Positions 11,818 through 24,502 of a stretch of 24,598 nt of DNA are shown one piece after another; within the stretch, counting starts at the first letter, position 1, and every line of letters starts with the position of its first letter. The translations under genes were made by a program, and so were the position numbers. The notes under the pieces are model-generated. The model was not told the origin of the DNA. It was given only the letters and a program-made list of their open reading frames with translations, and did not search any database. Source of the DNA: a virus. Location of the stretch: the IMG/VR virus record IMGVR_UViG_3300025252_000002, positions 1 through 24,598 of that record. One strand, 5' to 3'.

Positions 11818-12489
11818 TCAATCGCTTGCCTCATCTGTCCGAATTGCGCCGTCCGAATTGTCGGATTGCGTTTCGCTAACCCATTGATTTTGCTCATTTC
11901 TCCAACGCACATCCGCAGGCACCAATCCGGCACGCTCGGAAGGCGTGACATCGCGCGCATCGCGGGCGGGATCGGGTGCCGCAGCTCCGCCGCCCTGGAC
12001 AACCAGCGTGACCGCCTGGTTGACCGCCACGTCCGGCGAGGCCTTGGGCGTGCCGTAGGGCAGAAGCGCCTCGGCGGCGCGCAGCTGGACGGCGAAGACC
12101 TGGGCGAACGTGGACAGCCGCTGCTCGGGCGTGATCTTGCGCGGTTTGCCCTCTTCGCACAGGGCGTCGGCAAACGCCCAGGCGAGGATCTGCTCGGTCC
12201 GGGTCATGGCTGTCTCGAACACGTCGCGCGAGGACGCGAGGCCAGCCATCTCGGACAGCTGCTGCTCTGGCAGGCGGTAGCCCTTGGCCGCCAGCCAATC
12301 GCGCATCTGGCTCGATCCCTTGCCCGTGGCACCCTTGGGGCGGCCAGGCTTGCGGCCCGCGACCTCGGCGGGTGTCCGGCCGGGCTCATCGGCCAGGAGG
12401 GAGAGCTGCTCTCCGGTGCGGCGCGCCTCCTCCAGGCGCTTCGCGGCATCGCGGGCCAGCACTTCGGCGGTGTTCCGGGGCTTTGCCAT
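11818..12489 (-). CDS. Terminase small subunit (TerS), putative
   Basis: 223 residues. The N-terminal third is charged and helical, then an AT-hook-like basic motif GRKPGRPKG occurs at about residues 46-54, followed by a helix-turn-helix-like region (MRDWLAAKGYRLPEQQLSEMAG) and helical segments (RTEQILAWAFADALCEEG). This matches podovirus small terminases that bind the packaging site and recruit TerL. It sits directly upstream of TerL at the head of the packaging operon. A GAAGGGGG ribosome site precedes the ATG. Its position beside the decamer array at 12533-12806 makes that array a possible binding target. The identification rests on position and general character, not on a unique motif. 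Confidence 0.65.
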   Translation of the reverse strand: MAKPRNTAEVLARDAAKRLEEARRTGEQLSLLADEPGRTPAEVAGRKPGRPKGATGKGSSQMRDWLAAKGYRLPEQQLSEMAGLASSRDVFETAMTRTEQILAWAFADALCEEGKPRKITPEQRLSTFAQVFAVQLRAAEALLPYGTPKASPDVAVNQAVTLVVQGGGAAAPDPARDARDVTPSERAGLVPADVRWRNEQNQWVSETQSDNSDGAIRTDEASD

Positions 12490-12532
12490 GTCAGAAAACC
12501 CCCTTCTTATTTGTTTTCAGAGGGTTAGCGCA

Positions 12533-12806
12533 GGGCAAAACAGGGGCAAAACACTTTTCAGGACCTGTTTTGGGCAGTGTTTTGGGCTGTTTCCCTTTGT
12601 TTTCAATGTCTTGATATATGTCTAAAACAGTAAAACAGGGAAACAGGTATGCCCTCACGCGCGCGCGCGCATGCACACACATGTAGAGGGTGGCTGATCT
12701 GCGTTTTACTGTTTTGGGTGATGGGTAAGCCCATGATTTTGCCGGGTAAATCGGCAAAACAGTGGGCAAAACATGGGCAAAACACTGCGTCTTGCTGTTT
12801 TGCCCC
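12533..12806. repeat. Iteron-like array of GGGCAAAACA decamers (candidate origin)
   Basis: Exact GGGCAAAACA occurs at 12533-12542, 12544-12553, 12764-12773 and 12775-12784, and in inverse as TGTTTTGCCC at 12796-12805. CGGCAAAACA is at 12752-12761. Inverse near-copies TGTTTTGGGC/T are at 12566-12575, 12578-12587 and 12710-12719. Shorter TAAAACAG copies are at 12623-12630 and 12631-12638. Neighbouring copies are 11 or 12 bp apart, about one helical turn, so a protein bound to each would face the same side of the DNA. AT-rich DNA (12591-12640) and a Z-prone tract (12656-12685) lie between the two clusters. Direct and inverted decamers beside a primase/helicase operon recall the alpha-protein iterons of phage P4 ori and crr. 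One minus-strand frame is open across the whole region, but its composition follows the repeats. Confidence 0.75.
12656..12685. other. 30-bp alternating pyrimidine/purine tract (Z-DNA-prone)
   Basis: From 12656 to 12685 every step alternates pyrimidine and purine: a CG run of about seven repeats, then ATG, then a CA run, then TGTA. Such tracts can flip to left-handed DNA under negative supercoiling. It lies almost exactly between the two decamer clusters and next to an AT-rich stretch, which suits a DNA-unwinding function at an origin. A simple-sequence repeat with no function is the alternative. Confidence 0.7.
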
Positions 12807-12942
12807 GGACCCGTCGCACAAGCGCTAAGCCTCGCGAAAATCATGGCATCGAACGAGGTGTGGAGCAAGGGGGCACGACGGCACTTGCACGTTTGGCCGG
12901 GAAGAGAATGGGCGAGAGGGTGGCGAGGTGCGGAGATGCCCA

Positions 12943-14904
12943 TCAGAAATCGCCCTCCTCGTAGTAGGCTTGCTCGGCGGCGGCCGCGGGTTTCGTCGTT
13001 GCGCTCTGGCTCTCTGGGAAGGCGTTCAGCGCTGGGATACTGGCGAGCGGCAACATCGTGCCCCGCGTCCTTACGCCGGCCAGCGTCTTGGTGCTGTTCG
13101 GTCGATAGGCGTTGGGAACGCGCCTGGCGGACTGTGACCAGACGCCGCCAGCCCACTGACTGCCCTCGAACAAGCGCTTCATGAGGGCTGTGCCTGTGTT
13201 GGCAATGAAGAGCACGGGCTCGGTCTCGGCGTAGATCCGCAGGCCGTACTGGGCCAGCAGGTCGTTCGCCTGTCTCTTGCGTTCCTCGCGGCCGATATCG
13301 TCGGTCGAGTGATCGCCCAGCAGCTTCGCCGGCGCGCCTGGTAGCCCGGCCGCAACCATGATCCATTGCGAGACGGTGTACTGCTCGCCGCGCCGAAATG
13401 GATCCAGCAGCTGGCCCAGCAGGTGCGACAGCATCGCGTCGGCGTCGTTGGTCACCTCTTCCCGATCGGCCGCGACCAGCATTGCCACCTTGCGGGCCCA
13501 GCTGTTGCAGATCGACGGCTCTGGCAGTGCCTCGTCCATCGCCATGTCGGCCATGGCCAGTACGATCTCCCAGTTGTCGGCATTGCGGCCCGTCACGCCC
13601 TGCTTCTCCAGGGCGTGGCGATAGCGTGAGATCCGCTCGGGCAGAGACGGCCATCGCTCGATGAGCCGCGCCCTCAGCCGCGCCCCGCGTGCACGCCAGG
13701 TCTTCGGCTCCAGAGACAGACCGCTGGCATTCTCGATGCGGTTCATGTCGAGCCGGATCAGGCGCTGCACGTCCTGTGTCGACATGATCCCGGGGATCAG
13801 GATCGAAGAGAACAGGAAGGCGGAGTAGACCTTGCCGCCTACCGAGCTCTGGTCGGCCGATCCGCGCGACCACTCGCCACCCGACGACGCGACCCGCGCC
13901 AGCGTGATGATGTCCCGCTCCTTGTTGCTGCGCTCGTCGCCGGGCTCGAGCTCGTCCAGGGCGACGGGCAGCGATGACTGCTTGAGGCGCGAGGTGATGC
14001 CGGACTTCGTGGCGTCGGTCGACTGGATCAGAGCGCCGTCGCCATGCAGGAAGCCGATCATCTTCTGGAACTCGGACTTGCCGGCGCTTGCCGGTGCCGT
14101 CAGCCAAAAGGTCGGCCGCCAGCGCATGGCTCCGCACAGCATTTGCGTCGCGATCATGCCCAGAGCGACATGCGGGTGCAGATCCGGAATGGTCCAGTTC
14201 CAGCTCTTCAGCGTCTCGAGGATGTCGGGAACGGGGTCCGGACCACCTTCGATCGGGCGCGGCAGGGCCGGTGCTGCCGGGTAGATCCGGCCAGCGATGC
14301 GGCCCGGCGCCAGCAGCTCGCCGCCGTACAGGACCTTGTCGCCCATGTGGTAGATCAGCCCGCTGTCATCATCCGTCCAGGCGCCAACACCGCGCACGGC
14401 ATTGTCCGGGTTGAAGACGCCGCACTCGCCGGCCGCCGCCCATAGGTTGTTGCTGGCACACGTGCCATCGAACTGGCCGCGCACGCGCTCCGGAACGCCG
14501 TCCTCGCCCTTCCGCCATTTCGGGAAGGCGTCGCACAGGTAATCGAAGCGCGCCGCGAAGAGCGATGCCAGGAACTGGAGCTTGAGATCCTTCGACTCCC
14601 TCAGCTGCCCGAGGGCGTCAAGGAAATAGGCTTTGTCGCCACGGACGCCAAGAGCCTGGACCGGGCAGTTGTCCAGCACGCGGCCCGAGCTTCCGCGTAT
14701 GCCGCCACGCTGTCCCTCTGCTTTTTCGCTTCCCCTTGTGCCGCCAGATGCGCGGCCATTTCCTCGCCTGTCAGAAGTCGACCGTTGCTGTCGATCATTC
14801 CCGTCATTGCCTGCTTCCTCTCTCTTTGGTTGTGCCGGGGCATCCTGCAGAGCCGCCCGCAATTCGTTTTCAGTCGGTCGTTTCGGGCTCTTCGGTAGTG
14901 CCAT
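12943..14904 (-). CDS. Replicative helicase/ATPase, D5/DUF927-like (possible 5' frameshift)
   Basis: 653 residues as a continuous frame. Walker A is APASAGKS (270-277) and Walker B is VALDEL (314-319), followed by a long sensor/arginine-finger region, as in viral superfamily-3/D5-type and DUF927 helicases. The N-terminal domain (about 76-220) has the DNCPVQALGVRGDKAYFLDALGQL start typical of this phage helicase group. The extreme C-terminus (about 549-622) matches the C-terminus of the antirepressor at 22136-22966. The ATG at 14904 lies inside the primase gene. Residues 29-74 of this frame are low complexity, while a different frame over the same DNA (14807 to about 14663) reads like a better N-terminus with a good ribosome site; see the entry at 14601-14807. 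With the Toprim primase upstream it would form the replication fork pair. Confidence 0.8.
   Translation of the reverse strand: MALPKSPKRPTENELRAALQDAPAQPKREEAGNDGNDRQQRSTSDRRGNGRASGGTRGSEKAEGQRGGIRGSSGRVLDNCPVQALGVRGDKAYFLDALGQLRESKDLKLQFLASLFAARFDYLCDAFPKWRKGEDGVPERVRGQFDGTCASNNLWAAAGECGVFNPDNAVRGVGAWTDDDSGLIYHMGDKVLYGGELLAPGRIAGRIYPAAPALPRPIEGGPDPVPDILETLKSWNWTIPDLHPHVALGMIATQMLCGAMRWRPTFWLTAPASAGKSEFQKMIGFLHGDGALIQSTDATKSGITSRLKQSSLPVALDELEPGDERSNKERDIITLARVASSGGEWSRGSADQSSVGGKVYSAFLFSSILIPGIMSTQDVQRLIRLDMNRIENASGLSLEPKTWRARGARLRARLIERWPSLPERISRYRHALEKQGVTGRNADNWEIVLAMADMAMDEALPEPSICNSWARKVAMLVAADREEVTNDADAMLSHLLGQLLDPFRRGEQYTVSQWIMVAAGLPGAPAKLLGDHSTDDIGREERKRQANDLLAQYGLRIYAETEPVLFIANTGTALMKRLFEGSQWAGGVWSQSARRVPNAYRPNSTKTLAGVRTRGTMLPLASIPALNAFPESQSATTKPAAAAEQAYYEEGDF
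14601..14807 (-). CDS. Overlapping frame: likely native helicase N-terminus, shifted
   Basis: An ATG at 14807 preceded by AGAGAGGAAG at good spacing opens a frame beginning MTGMIDSNGRLLTGEEMAAH and continuing through LAAQGEAKKQRDSVAAYAEARAA, a natural-looking amphipathic helix. At about 14663 the good coding signal moves to the other frame (RVLDNCPVQALGV), and this frame then becomes junk and stops at 14601. The simplest reading is that one base is missing near 14663 in a gene that begins at 14807. Alternatives are that this is a short separate gene, a compensating pair of frameshifts, or that the 14904 start is real and the overlap is chance. There is no slippery heptamer at the junction, so programmed slippage is unlikely. 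Confidence 0.4.
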   Translation of the reverse strand: MTGMIDSNGRLLTGEEMAAHLAAQGEAKKQRDSVAAYAEARAACWTTARSRLLASVATKPISLTPSGS

Positions 14905-16039
14905 CTGCCATCCCTCTCAGCGCGTCATTGAGGTCTTTTCCGCCCCACTGGTTGAAGAACACGCGCACTTCTCTGCCTTTGCCCTGGTGCGCCTGGACGG
15001 CGCGCGCGAGGGTGTCTCTTGCGGTTTCGTTCTCGTCCCGATCCGCCACCAGCGTGACGGTCGCGACGTTCTCGGGCAGCCGCACGGCGCCCATGTTCGA
15101 GAGGCTCACGGCGCAAAGCACACGCTCTTCGGGCAGCAGCATGACGACGCTCAGCGCGTCCTCGATGCCCTCGGCGATGAAGACGTGGGTGCCGGGCTGA
15201 CACTGCGAGAGCGGCGCCGGCTTGCCGCCCTGCGGGCCGATGCCGCGCCACATGTTGATGGAGCAGCCCCAGTAGGTGCCGAGCACCTTCTTCGGCTGAG
15301 GCACCGATGCCTTCTGCCAGCGGCCGTCGCGCAGCTCGAGCCATGTGCGGTGGATCCCGAGCATCTTGCCGTCGGGCCCATTGATCGCGGCGACCATCGC
15401 CGGCCAGGTGCCCTCGAAGATCTCGCCGGTCTGCTCGTCCTCGTGGTAGTAGGAGAGCTCCGGGGCGAACCGGATCGCGCGCGGCTGGCGGCCGAGCCGC
15501 GCAAGGTCGATGCCACGAGTGTCGCGCAGGTAGCTCTCCACCGGCGTCGCGCGGATCCCCTCCTGGGCGCTGGCATAGATCGCGCGGGCAGCCCGCTCGC
15601 GCTTGTCGCGCTTGCGCCGCTCTTCCGCCTCCTTCTCGCGCCGTCGCGCTTTTGCCTCCTCTGCCCGCTCCTCGCGCTGCCGGCGCTCGGCCGGGTTCAG
15701 CGTCTCGAGGCCGAGAAATGCCCGGGCCTCTTTCATGGCCGCCCCGAGATCGCTGCGCCCCACGCCGTTGATCGACAGGTCGATGAGGTCGAGGATGTCG
15801 CCGCGGCAGTTGTCGACGGCGTAGTCGTTCCAGCTCCCCGCCCGAGCGCCCTGCATGCGGACCCGGAATGATCCTACGCGGGTGTCAGCCCGGCCGGGGT
15901 TCAGGGTCCAGTATTCCCCATGGTGGGTGTAGCTGTCCGATGACGGCGGCGCGTAGTGGTGCACCACGCTGTCGAGCTGCGCCAGCAGCATGTCCTTGAT
16001 CTGGTCAAGGCTGTAGGTCTGGTGGTGTGACACGGTCAT
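14870..16039 (-). CDS. Toprim-domain DNA primase
   Basis: 389 residues. The N-terminal domain (1-112) has the DDYAVDNCRGDILDLIDL-like layout (here at 72-88) seen in phage primase N-terminal modules. Residues 115-152 form a very basic/acidic helix (RRQREERAEEAKARRREKE), and the C-terminal half is a Toprim fold: FIAEGIEDALSV with Glu 290 and TLVADRDEN with Asp 333 and Asp 335, the metal-binding residues. It would prime lagging strands, or start replication, together with the helicase at 12943-14904, whose frame overlaps its 3' end. Its ATG overlaps the stop of the upstream twin-HTH gene (ATGA at 16036-16039). No zinc-finger cysteine cluster is visible. Confidence 0.85.
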   Translation of the reverse strand: MTVSHHQTYSLDQIKDMLLAQLDSVVHHYAPPSSDSYTHHGEYWTLNPGRADTRVGSFRVRMQGARAGSWNDYAVDNCRGDILDLIDLSINGVGRSDLGAAMKEARAFLGLETLNPAERRQREERAEEAKARRREKEAEERRKRDKRERAARAIYASAQEGIRATPVESYLRDTRGIDLARLGRQPRAIRFAPELSYYHEDEQTGEIFEGTWPAMVAAINGPDGKMLGIHRTWLELRDGRWQKASVPQPKKVLGTYWGCSINMWRGIGPQGGKPAPLSQCQPGTHVFIAEGIEDALSVVMLLPEERVLCAVSLSNMGAVRLPENVATVTLVADRDENETARDTLARAVQAHQGKGREVRVFFNQWGGKDLNDALRGMADGTTEEPETTD

Positions 16040-22029: not shown

Positions 22030-22146
22030 ATGGGTCGACCACCGCCTCCGTCACAGCAGGAGACGTCGTATCCCCCACGTCAGGCAACCCGGCCATGGGC
22101 AAGCCGGTGCGCCGCATTCCCCCAAGGAGCAAGCCATGAGCGCTGA
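22030..22146 (+). CDS. Doubtful 38-residue frame before the antirepressor
   Basis: An ATG at 22030 lies 6 nt after a good GGAGG (22019-22023). The product is Pro/Arg-rich (MGRPPPPSQQETSYPPRQ...) and overlaps the antirepressor start by 11 bp. The ribosome site is the main support; the composition argues against it. It may be a leader peptide or nothing. The rest of 21991-22135 shows no other signal. Confidence 0.25.
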   Translation: MGRPPPPSQQETSYPPRQATRPWASRCAAFPQGASHER

Positions 22147-22966
22147 AATCATCCCCTTCGATTTTGAAGAACAGGCCGTGCGCGTCGTGATGCGCGGCGA
22201 AGACCCGTGGTTCGTGGCCGCCGATGTCTGCCGCGTGCTGGGCATCGTAAATACATCTCAGGCCGTGCAGCGTCTGGACGAGGACGAAGTTACCCTATGT
22301 CAGATAGAGGGTAGCCACCGCCCGACGAACCTCCTCAGCGAAAGCGGCCTATACGCCCTTGTCATTCGATCCGACAAGCCAGAGGCGAAGCGGTTCCGAA
22401 AATGGATCACCGCCGAGGTGCTTCCCGCGATCCGCCAGCATGGGCGCTACGAGCTGATCCCGACGCCCCAGCCCGAGGTCGGGCAGATCGCAGGGCTGCC
22501 GATCCGGGAGGCCGAGCTCTGGCTGCAGATGGTACGTGAGGCGCGGCTGACGCGAGGCAATCGGGCGGCGAACTCGATCTGGGACCGCTCTCCCCTGCCC
22601 GCCCTCACGCCACTGGGCTCGGGTCGCTCAGGATCGGAGCCGCAGGACGGTCGCGGTTGTCTCGCGCACCTGATGGCGACGCTGGGTGAGGAGATCACCG
22701 AGGCGCGCCTGGTCGGCCGGGAAGATCCGGCCCTTACTGAGCAGGGGATCCGCCCCTATGCCGACGCGCTCTTCCTGGCGAACTTCGCCCTGCCCGTCTT
22801 CCATGGAACGCGCTGGCAGGGCGGGATGCATCGCGCCGCCCTGATGGAACTGCCGAATGTACATCCTGCGCCGGGTGCACGGACGCTGGCGGGCGTCAGG
22901 ACACGCGGGCTGGCATTGCCGTGGCGGCTGATCGATGGGGCGGATGTGGTGGAGTTTCCGAAATAA
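22136..22966 (+). CDS. Antirepressor: Bro-N domain with a helicase-like C-terminal tail
   Basis: 276 residues, with AAGGAG before the ATG. Residues 1-105 are a Bro-N domain: FEEQAVRVVMRGEDPWFVAADVCRVLGI, TNLLSESGLYALVIRSDKPEAKRFRKWITAEVLPAIRQHG. This domain is typical of phage antirepressors that bind the repressor or DNA. The C-terminal part is not a common KilA-C domain: residues about 175-266 align with the C-terminus of the prophage's own helicase (LAHLMATL with LSHLLGQL; GIRPYAD with GLRIYAE; FHGTRWQGG with FEGSQWAGG; TLAGVRTRG identical). It probably triggers induction, which fits a repressor that cannot cleave itself. It is followed 8 bp later by a convergent gene. Confidence 0.85.
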   Translation: MSAEIIPFDFEEQAVRVVMRGEDPWFVAADVCRVLGIVNTSQAVQRLDEDEVTLCQIEGSHRPTNLLSESGLYALVIRSDKPEAKRFRKWITAEVLPAIRQHGRYELIPTPQPEVGQIAGLPIREAELWLQMVREARLTRGNRAANSIWDRSPLPALTPLGSGRSGSEPQDGRGCLAHLMATLGEEITEARLVGREDPALTEQGIRPYADALFLANFALPVFHGTRWQGGMHRAALMELPNVHPAPGARTLAGVRTRGLALPWRLIDGADVVEFPK

Positions 22967-22974
22967 GCGATGTC

Positions 22975-23340
22975 TCAGAGACAGGGAAAAGCCTGAAAAA
23001 GAGCTTGCCACGCGATATTAGCGGCAGTGAAATGCCGCTTTTCAGGGTGGGTCTCGAGATGCCTTACCACGATGTCTTGCACCTGACCGGCAACGACTCC
23101 GTCAACACCTTGTGGGACGCACACACCAGTGCCAGGCGCCTGAGAAACAAGTCCGAGCCCTTGGGCGGTCAAAATTGTGTCGTGAACACCAGAGATGAAG
23201 CCTAGACAAACCGCTTGATCAACAGTGCTCTCGCTCGAACATAAGGCCAGAAGATCATTTCCAGATCTGAACTCCGCGCTGGCGGCCACCGGGCTCACTA
23301 GCCCAGCAAAGAGGGCAAGCACTCTGAGGTAATGTGTCAT
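22975..23340 (-). CDS. Secreted Rap1a/Tai-family-like protein
   Basis: 121 residues with AGGAG about 10 nt before the ATG. Residues 1-22 are a signal peptide (hydrophobic core VLALFAGLVSPVAASA). The mature part follows the Rap1a/Tai pattern: NDLLALCSS...CLGFISGVHDT, then GVCVPQGV, VQDIVVRHLETHPEKRHFTAANIAWQALFQAFPC, with four cysteines that could form two disulfides. Known Rap1a/Tai proteins are periplasmic immunity proteins against type VI amidase effectors, but many relatives are orphans of unknown role. No effector gene is next to it. It converges on the antirepressor with an 8-bp gap, and its 3' end contains a TGTCTC-A-GAGACA inverted repeat (22974-22986). It could be a lysogeny-expressed cargo gene or the first host gene beyond the prophage. 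Confidence 0.75.
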   Translation of the reverse strand: MTHYLRVLALFAGLVSPVAASAEFRSGNDLLALCSSESTVDQAVCLGFISGVHDTILTAQGLGLVSQAPGTGVCVPQGVDGVVAGQVQDIVVRHLETHPEKRHFTAANIAWQALFQAFPCL

Positions 23341-23607: not shown

Positions 23608-24291
23608 TCAGTTCCGACCGCAACATTGCTTATACTTGCGTCCAGACCCGCAAGAGCATGGATCGTTCCGCCCAGGGCGAGCGGCCGCCTTGAACGGCAT
23701 ATCGGAGGGATCTCCCGCCTCTAGGCTACATAGCTCAGGCCGGGACTGAGCGAGTATGGTAGCAACGCAGTTCGGGATTAGATCCGGCGCTTCGCGGTCG
23801 ATCTCGTCGATCTCCTCATCCGAGAAATTACTCTGCCCGATGTAGATCTCGTGGAGCGCCATCAGGAAAATAATCGTCGACTGCGTCGCCTCATCGGCCC
23901 GCTCGATCAACCGCTCCCAAGGCTCCTGCTGCAACCGCATTGCGCGCGTGAAGCCATCAATCCAGGGCTCCCACAGAACCTCGTCGCTGTTGGGGTCGAC
24001 CTCGTAGATCGGATCGATCCAGATGGATTCGAGCATCGCCTCGGCGACGGAGTTATAGTGCTCCATCACGGCACCGATCGTGACCGAGGCCGTCGCTTCA
24101 TCCTTGAACTCTGCCTCGCCGGTCTCGGCCCAGACGAGAGGCAGCCACTCAGAGGGCGGGATAAGTTCCGGGCAGGTAAGAAGACCAGTCACGTAGCCGT
24201 CCAGCTCGCTGATCGACATGGGCATGTCCTCGTGAGGCAATGCGTGCAGAAGCTTGCTTAGGCGATCGAGGTCTTGGTCGGTTTGGCTCAT
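23608..24291 (-). CDS. UPF0149/YecA-like protein with C-terminal SEC-C zinc motif
   Basis: 227 residues from the ATG at 24291, chosen because AGGAGG lies 7 nt upstream; a 26-residue extension is rejected. Residues 10-190 are helical and acidic with [32 protein letters not shown], the signature region of the UPF0149/YecA family ('m....LdGfl.a......p..wlp'). The last 20 residues are the SEC-C motif ([18 protein letters not shown]), which binds one zinc through Cys/His-type ligands as in SecA. YecA-type proteins are reported as SecA- or ribosome-associated factors. Codon use and length look chromosomal, so this is likely host DNA or passenger cargo. Confidence 0.85.
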
Positions 24292-24305
24292 GGCATGCCT
24301 CCTAG

Positions 24306-24347
24306 GATTGCGGGCGACCGTATCGCGCGTGAAGCGCGCCCGCAATC
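24306..24347. other. Hairpin in the leader of the SEC-C gene
   Basis: GATTGCGGGCG (24306-24316) is the exact reverse complement of CGCCCGCAATC (24337-24347). A competing small hairpin CGCGC-GTGAA-GCGCG lies inside (24324-24338) and shares two bases with the outer stem. The structure ends 9-15 nt before the AGGAGG of the SEC-C gene, so it could affect translation or transcription there. It could also be a terminator-like element without a T-run. Confidence 0.45.
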
Positions 24348-24502
24348 TGAGCGCGGCTGACGAAACCAAGGAGTACGCGCAGAGGGTCGCGCATGACCGA
24401 GCGTCACGACATCGATCGGCTCAGCGACGCTGAATTTCATGACCAGCCCGTTGAGGTTCTTGCCCCGCCATCCGTCCGGCGTGGTACGCTCATCAGTGTA
24501 AC

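Follow-up and report, generated by a model that had tools for sequence, protein, structure and literature searches.

What is the function of a set of short repeats that flank, on both sides, a run of strictly alternating pyrimidines and purines, and that lie between a helicase gene and the genes for DNA packaging? They are found in an IMG/VR virus record of 24,598 bases (IMGVR_UViG_3300025252_000002), the whole of which was analysed and is termed here the window. The record encodes its own large terminase, and the array of repeats sits in a phage genome, that of a temperate phage in the best explanation. An earlier note on this DNA proposed the array as a candidate replication origin. Judged by comparison with relatives, this is the best-supported reading: the array adjoins the helicase gene in all loci used, it has the form of a dyad of six plus six sites, and its repeat word changes with the C-terminal domain of the helicase. 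It is very probably a phage replication origin that the helicase recognises and across whose core two hexamers would be loaded.

The array and its setting

The array extends from 12533 to 12805, directly downstream of the helicase gene (12943–14904, minus strand) and upstream of the start of terS (11818–12489, minus strand), and so does lie, as had been stated, between the replication operon and the terminase genes. It is made up of 12 short sites, divided equally by the alternating tract into six and six. The earlier note had counted at least nine copies of a decamer, GGGCAAAACA, five of them exact. The five exact copies, in both orientations, are there (12533, 12544, 12764 and 12775 on the plus strand, 12796–12805 on the minus strand), but a further three are near copies with one or two mismatches, and the heptamer CAAAACA is a better description of the unit. 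Between 12490 and 12942 there are nine exact copies of this heptamer, whereas 500 first-order Markov sequences contain 0.29 on average and never more than 2; if one mismatch is tolerated the figure rises to 14, and that for the Markov sequences to 3.5 on average and 11 at most.

Starting from the terS side, an outer pair of CAAAACA sites 11 bp apart at 12536–12553 (12536–12542 and 12547–12553, plus strand) is followed by a middle pair of the same word, 12 bp apart and in the opposite orientation, at 12566–12584 (12566–12572 and 12578–12584, minus strand), and by an inner pair of TAAAACA, 8 bp apart, at 12623–12637 (12623–12629 and 12631–12637, plus strand). Then comes the central tract, a perfect 30-bp alternation of pyrimidine and purine occupying exactly 12656–12685, which is Z-DNA-prone, has counterparts in relatives and is the longest such run in the window, the runner-up being 14 bp. 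On the helicase side an inner pair with 8-bp spacing at 12702–12716 (minus strand) comprises TAAAACG, with two mismatches, at 12702–12708 and CAAAACA at 12710–12716; beyond it are a middle triplet of CAAAACA at 12755–12784 (beginning at 12755, 12767 and 12778, plus strand; 12 and 11 bp apart) and a single outermost CAAAACA at 12796–12802 (minus strand). The count of six plus six includes the 8-bp-spaced TAAAACA/TAAAACG pairs flanking the tract. The spacing of 11–12 bp initially given for the whole array thus applies to its outer sites and not to the inner pairs. AT-rich DNA had also been remarked on between the two groups, and an AT content of 0.68–0.72 is indeed present at about 12590–12649, on the terS side, making this stretch a candidate unwinding element.

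The putative small terminase gene, terS, takes its name from its conservation and its position before TerL, without a family match. The partner gene upstream of the helicase, at 14870–16039 (minus strand), encodes a DUF7146/Toprim primase and is separate from, rather than fused to, the helicase gene. Between the helicase stop codon and the array, at 12840–12869 (minus strand), there is a conserved promoter-like element, CTTGCT-N18-CATGAT, recognisable in 35 of 50 loci with the consensus cCTtcCCCgcaCCC...tGCCAttAT; it may serve as a promoter for terS and the late genes.

Conservation of the architecture in relatives

About 100 related loci were gathered by TerS alignments and then by helicase alignments, and in about 50 of them a word specific to the locus occurs some 12 times after the helicase stop codon. 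The array follows that stop codon in all 50 of the loci selected for analysis; in some other homologue loci (e.g., L068, L096 and L112) no clear array is present within the 520–700 bp examined. Site counts, the helicase tree and the presence of TerS and the Myb-like protein were assessed on 46 non-redundant loci, and in about that number the array is a dyad of six plus six sites with its central tract. The typical layout, with signs for orientation and numbers for spacing in bp, is + 8 + 22 - 12 - 44 + 8 + (alternating tract) - 8 - 44 + 12 + 22 - 8 -, and is nearly constant. The inner sites across the tract are about 75 bp apart in it, and the relatives keep both the orientations and the spacings of 8, 11–12, 22 and 44 bp. 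All left-inner sites in the 46 loci are in the plus orientation and all right-inner sites in the minus. Twelve sites is the commonest number (24/46 loci), with 11 in another 12/46; the left half has six in 38 of the 46 loci and the right half six in 28. The longest alternating run has a median length of 23 bp compared with 8 bp in control windows of the same loci, 0.1% of which reach 17. Mean AT content across loci has its minimum, 0.32, at the centre and its peak, 0.60–0.62, at 60–80 bp away on the terS side.

What does vary is the word itself. It is CAAAACA in the window and elsewhere CCACAACG, CTACGACG, CCGCTACA, GGTAACA, CTACAACG, CTGCGACG, CCACTACA, CATACC, TGAAACC and others, with at least 32 changes on the tree of 46 helicases. 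The arrangement also occurs in two loci outside IMG/VR: in an Ancylobacter chromosome (L003), GCAACAC is present in 11 copies together with an alternating tract, and in an unannotated gut phage scaffold (L123), with the word AGAACCG, array and central tract are just downstream of a helicase homologue. Searches of annotated phage records gave distant helicase homologues only, and of seven that were inspected array and central tract were present only in L123; the helicase alone as query found no viral relative and one genome locus, and almost nothing came of searching phage records with TerS or of an initial survey of genomes from alphaproteobacteria. An Rfam search with the array gave no match, on which ground a structured RNA was rejected. 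GC skew was uninformative.

Which protein does the word follow?

The earlier note had proposed looking in relatives for covariation of the repeat with one of several named proteins, and just such covariation is seen: with the layout kept in about 50 loci, the word covaries with the C-terminal domain of the helicase, one of those named, and not with TerS or the Myb-like protein. When word divergence was compared with segment divergence along the whole helicase, with overall divergence removed, the peak was at residues 605–616 (r = 0.45; scan mean 0.02, sd 0.12). Within the word it is base 3 for which the relation is sharpest. Among 1,831 columns in helicase, TerS, primase and TerL the best for this base is helicase residue 607 (z = 11): threonine or serine there is paired with A in 30 of 30 loci, and lysine, arginine or histidine with G in 14 of 15, the exception being L083, which has G with serine. 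Loci left out of the base-3 fit, whose registers were read by eye and are ambiguous in two cases, concur, with G and K/R together in eight, A and T in one and C and W, a new combination, in four. On the tree, changes of base 3 number only about five; three of four supported independent pairs agree and none disagrees, but so small a number cannot reach significance. Residue 612 is less clean, R being found with A at base 5 and S, A or P with G. For positions 2, 5 and 8 of the word the C-terminal domain offers no clean explanation; the best column for position 5 is residue 355 in the helicase core, and the windowed scan is also fairly high for TerL (0.35) and primase (0.35). In two sister phages, L072 and L074, most segments of the helicase core are 95–100% shared, yet the C-termini differ and the words are CCACGACG and CCACTACG, respectively. 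This suggests that C-terminal domain and array were exchanged together as one module. By covariation, then, it is the C-terminal domain of the helicase that would set word specificity. The proposed DNA-binding domain comprises residues of about 560–630 (13015–13227, minus strand) and the putative recognition segment residues 607–616 (13057–13086, minus strand), both delimited from covariation and a structure model.

What kind of helicase is involved? The AlphaFold2 model (pLDDT 86) gave Foldseek matches with E-values of 1e-6 to 4e-8 to the SaPI5 primase-helicase and to vaccinia D5, ASFV and NrS-1 helicases, though with a TM-score that is low, about 0.3 over the query, and points to the D5/SF3 family fold of D5-type hexameric helicases. 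A DUF927 profile matches 12 of 46 relatives (best E-value 4e-4); the window helicase has no match to either DUF927 or D5, and a sequence search of the PDB gave none. In its own model the C-terminal domain is of mixed helix and strand, with residue 607 within a strand; compared with the PDB it has no significant fold match, several of the weak ones being winged-helix-like.

What else might the array be?

Could it instead be a packaging start site (pac or cos) bound by TerS? Packaging sites are often in or close to terS, terS is immediately downstream of the array, and all 46 non-redundant loci have a TerS homologue. However, no segment of TerS covaries with the word, its best window reaching r = 0.20 where the helicase C-terminus in the same loci reaches 0.41, no TerS column comes out near the top for any word position tested, and a dyad of six plus six sites with a helicase-matched code is beyond the needs of a packaging site, all of which renders this explanation highly improbable. 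Least credible is an operator or enhancer through which the Myb-like protein of the same operon would control the late genes, even if that protein is found in 31 of the 46 loci, the promoter-like element precedes the array and several of the words resemble YAACKG, the eukaryotic Myb site. Nine loci that carry the array, each with 7.5 kb or more of sequence upstream, yielded no Myb-like protein, and in the 31 loci that have it, its best column against base 3 of the word scores 0.20 where helicase residue 607 scores 0.73. Of the binders originally put forward, the helicase has therefore been retained and TerS and the Myb-like protein have not.

Another idea leaves the helicase as binder and changes the purpose, the array being a site for copy control, partition or incompatibility and not an origin. 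The rapid diversification of the words would fit incompatibility or immunity typing, and the window also encodes a Bro-N protein that shares the C-terminal domain of the helicase. A further array was not seen in the vicinity of the helicase genes, though, and a single array per helicase, with its dyad of six plus six sites, fits two hexamers being loaded, as has been published for SaPI Rep (PMC7581432). This alternative too is improbable.

How might the proposed origin work?

The mechanism that we infer takes in physical binding, the stoichiometry of the hexamers, what the tract does, where the DNA melts and the activity of the array as an origin. The word would be recognised by the C-terminal domain of the helicase, whose gene is just upstream. 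Since there are six sites in each half and SaPI Rep is reported to bind as two hexamers, there may be one site per subunit, and so one hexamer on each side of the core, the two facing each other across the GC-rich alternating tract. The tract itself might take up torsional strain by adopting another DNA form, or might mark the point where the two rings meet. DNA nearby would be opened by the hexamers, the AT-rich stretch at about 12590–12649 being the likeliest place, and bidirectional replication would then start with the participation of the adjacent Toprim primase.

Relation to known initiator-origin systems

The likeness first suggested was to the origin of P4, whose alpha protein is an initiator helicase that presumably acts on short repeats through a C-terminal domain. 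That pointed in the right direction, but the P4 origin consists of ori plus a distant crr, and alpha is a primase-helicase fusion, in contrast to the separate Toprim gene here at 14870–16039; the published SaPI Rep-ori system is closer. SV40 T antigen and papillomavirus E1 are also alike in having dyad origins at which two SF3 hexamers are loaded. Their origins have four central sites, in contrast to six plus six. According to the relevant part of PMC7581432, those two proteins recognise DNA via their N-terminal domain.

For SaPI Rep, the C-terminal domain is reported to recognise iterons directly downstream of its gene, with binding as two hexamers (PMC7581432, in part). As far as the portions of PMC7581432 and PMC6092414 used here extend, the origins of SaPIbov1, SaPI5 and Gram-negative PICIs resemble the array in several respects: they are directly 3′ of the initiator helicase gene, which for the array is a matter of position; they have two sets of short iterons, where the array has six plus six sites; the helicase C-terminal domain is responsible for recognition, for which the evidence here is covariation; and the primase gene is separate or fused, here separate. 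The differences are as instructive. SaPIs and PICIs are satellites, and the array belongs to full-size phages that carry terminase and virion genes themselves; and where PICIs are described as having an AT-rich region between two iteron sets (PMC6092414, in part), the centre here is a GC-rich alternating tract (AT 0.32), the AT-rich stretch being within the terS-side half. For SaPIs or PICIs, those portions of the two papers say nothing of exactly six sites in each half, of a readable code that links residue to base or of an ORF crossing the array. Because of the phages' own terminase and the GC-rich alternating tract in place of an AT-rich centre, the array is likened to the SaPI/PICI Rep-ori in its presumed working and not filed as a member. 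It is a variant of the SaPI-type initiator-origin system in which the covariation of initiator and origin is unusually clear. Within the open-access literature searched, which has the primary SaPI origin papers and their site numbers outside it, no description of such an arrangement was found.

An open frame through the array

Is the array also part of a gene? Family searches bear out the original statement that no recognised gene covers it, but an ORF of 150 codons (12491–12943, minus strand) spans it entirely, its ATG overlapping the helicase stop codon (TGATG) and its end adjoining the start of terS. Almost all relatives have its equivalent open: in 46 of 50 loci the array can be read through without a stop in one or more forward frames, and the other frames carry several stops. 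In close pairs the substitutions at the three codon positions of this ORF number 99/113/87 compared with 61/28/377 in the helicase, and hence there is no constraint on a peptide. The same equality across codon positions led to rejection of the array as a by-product of a coding gene. The frame, it seems, is kept open irrespective of the peptide. As a guess, this would keep translation going into terS and avert premature transcription termination. A stop-free and unconstrained frame through a candidate origin raises a separate question, that of translation through an origin.

Implications

How initiator helicases recognise origins and load two rings is only partly understood. The combined reading would have one C-terminal residue set base 3 (T or S for A, K, R or H for G, W for C), exactly one site per subunit in each half, a Z-DNA-prone core as meeting point or strain absorber, and an origin kept translatable for reasons unrelated to the peptide; that all of these hold together is tentative, with a probability a little under even. 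If it is true, nature offers a large set of initiator helicases whose protein-DNA code can be read. With dozens of matched helicase-origin pairs, specificity would be predictable from sequence and residue swaps could be designed, and the origins of uncultured phages could be found and typed. The fixed count of six plus six gives a direct prediction of subunit-to-site stoichiometry, and with a conserved central alternating tract a role of Z-DNA in origin opening becomes testable.

Other proteins with the helicase C-terminal domain, and further observations

The Bro-N protein mentioned above (22136–22966, plus strand) is antirepressor-like, and its C-terminus (22796–22933) is the same domain as that of the helicase. 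The shared domain corresponds to positions 557–602 of phrog_21086, and its motif, TLAGVRTRG, is identical to that of the window helicase. As a matched second binder, however, the protein was rejected: the identity is a feature of the window, and the Bro-N-like proteins in L045, L046, L056 and L079 have motifs unlike those of their own helicases. Another protein, unrelated-looking, with a C-terminal domain of the helicase type is encoded in L104 (2211–2762, minus strand). A Rap1a-type immunity protein has its gene close to the end of the record, at 22975–23340 (minus strand), and at the right end, at 23608–24369 (minus strand), there is a UPF0149/SEC-C protein, which has the look of a host gene and may mark a prophage boundary.
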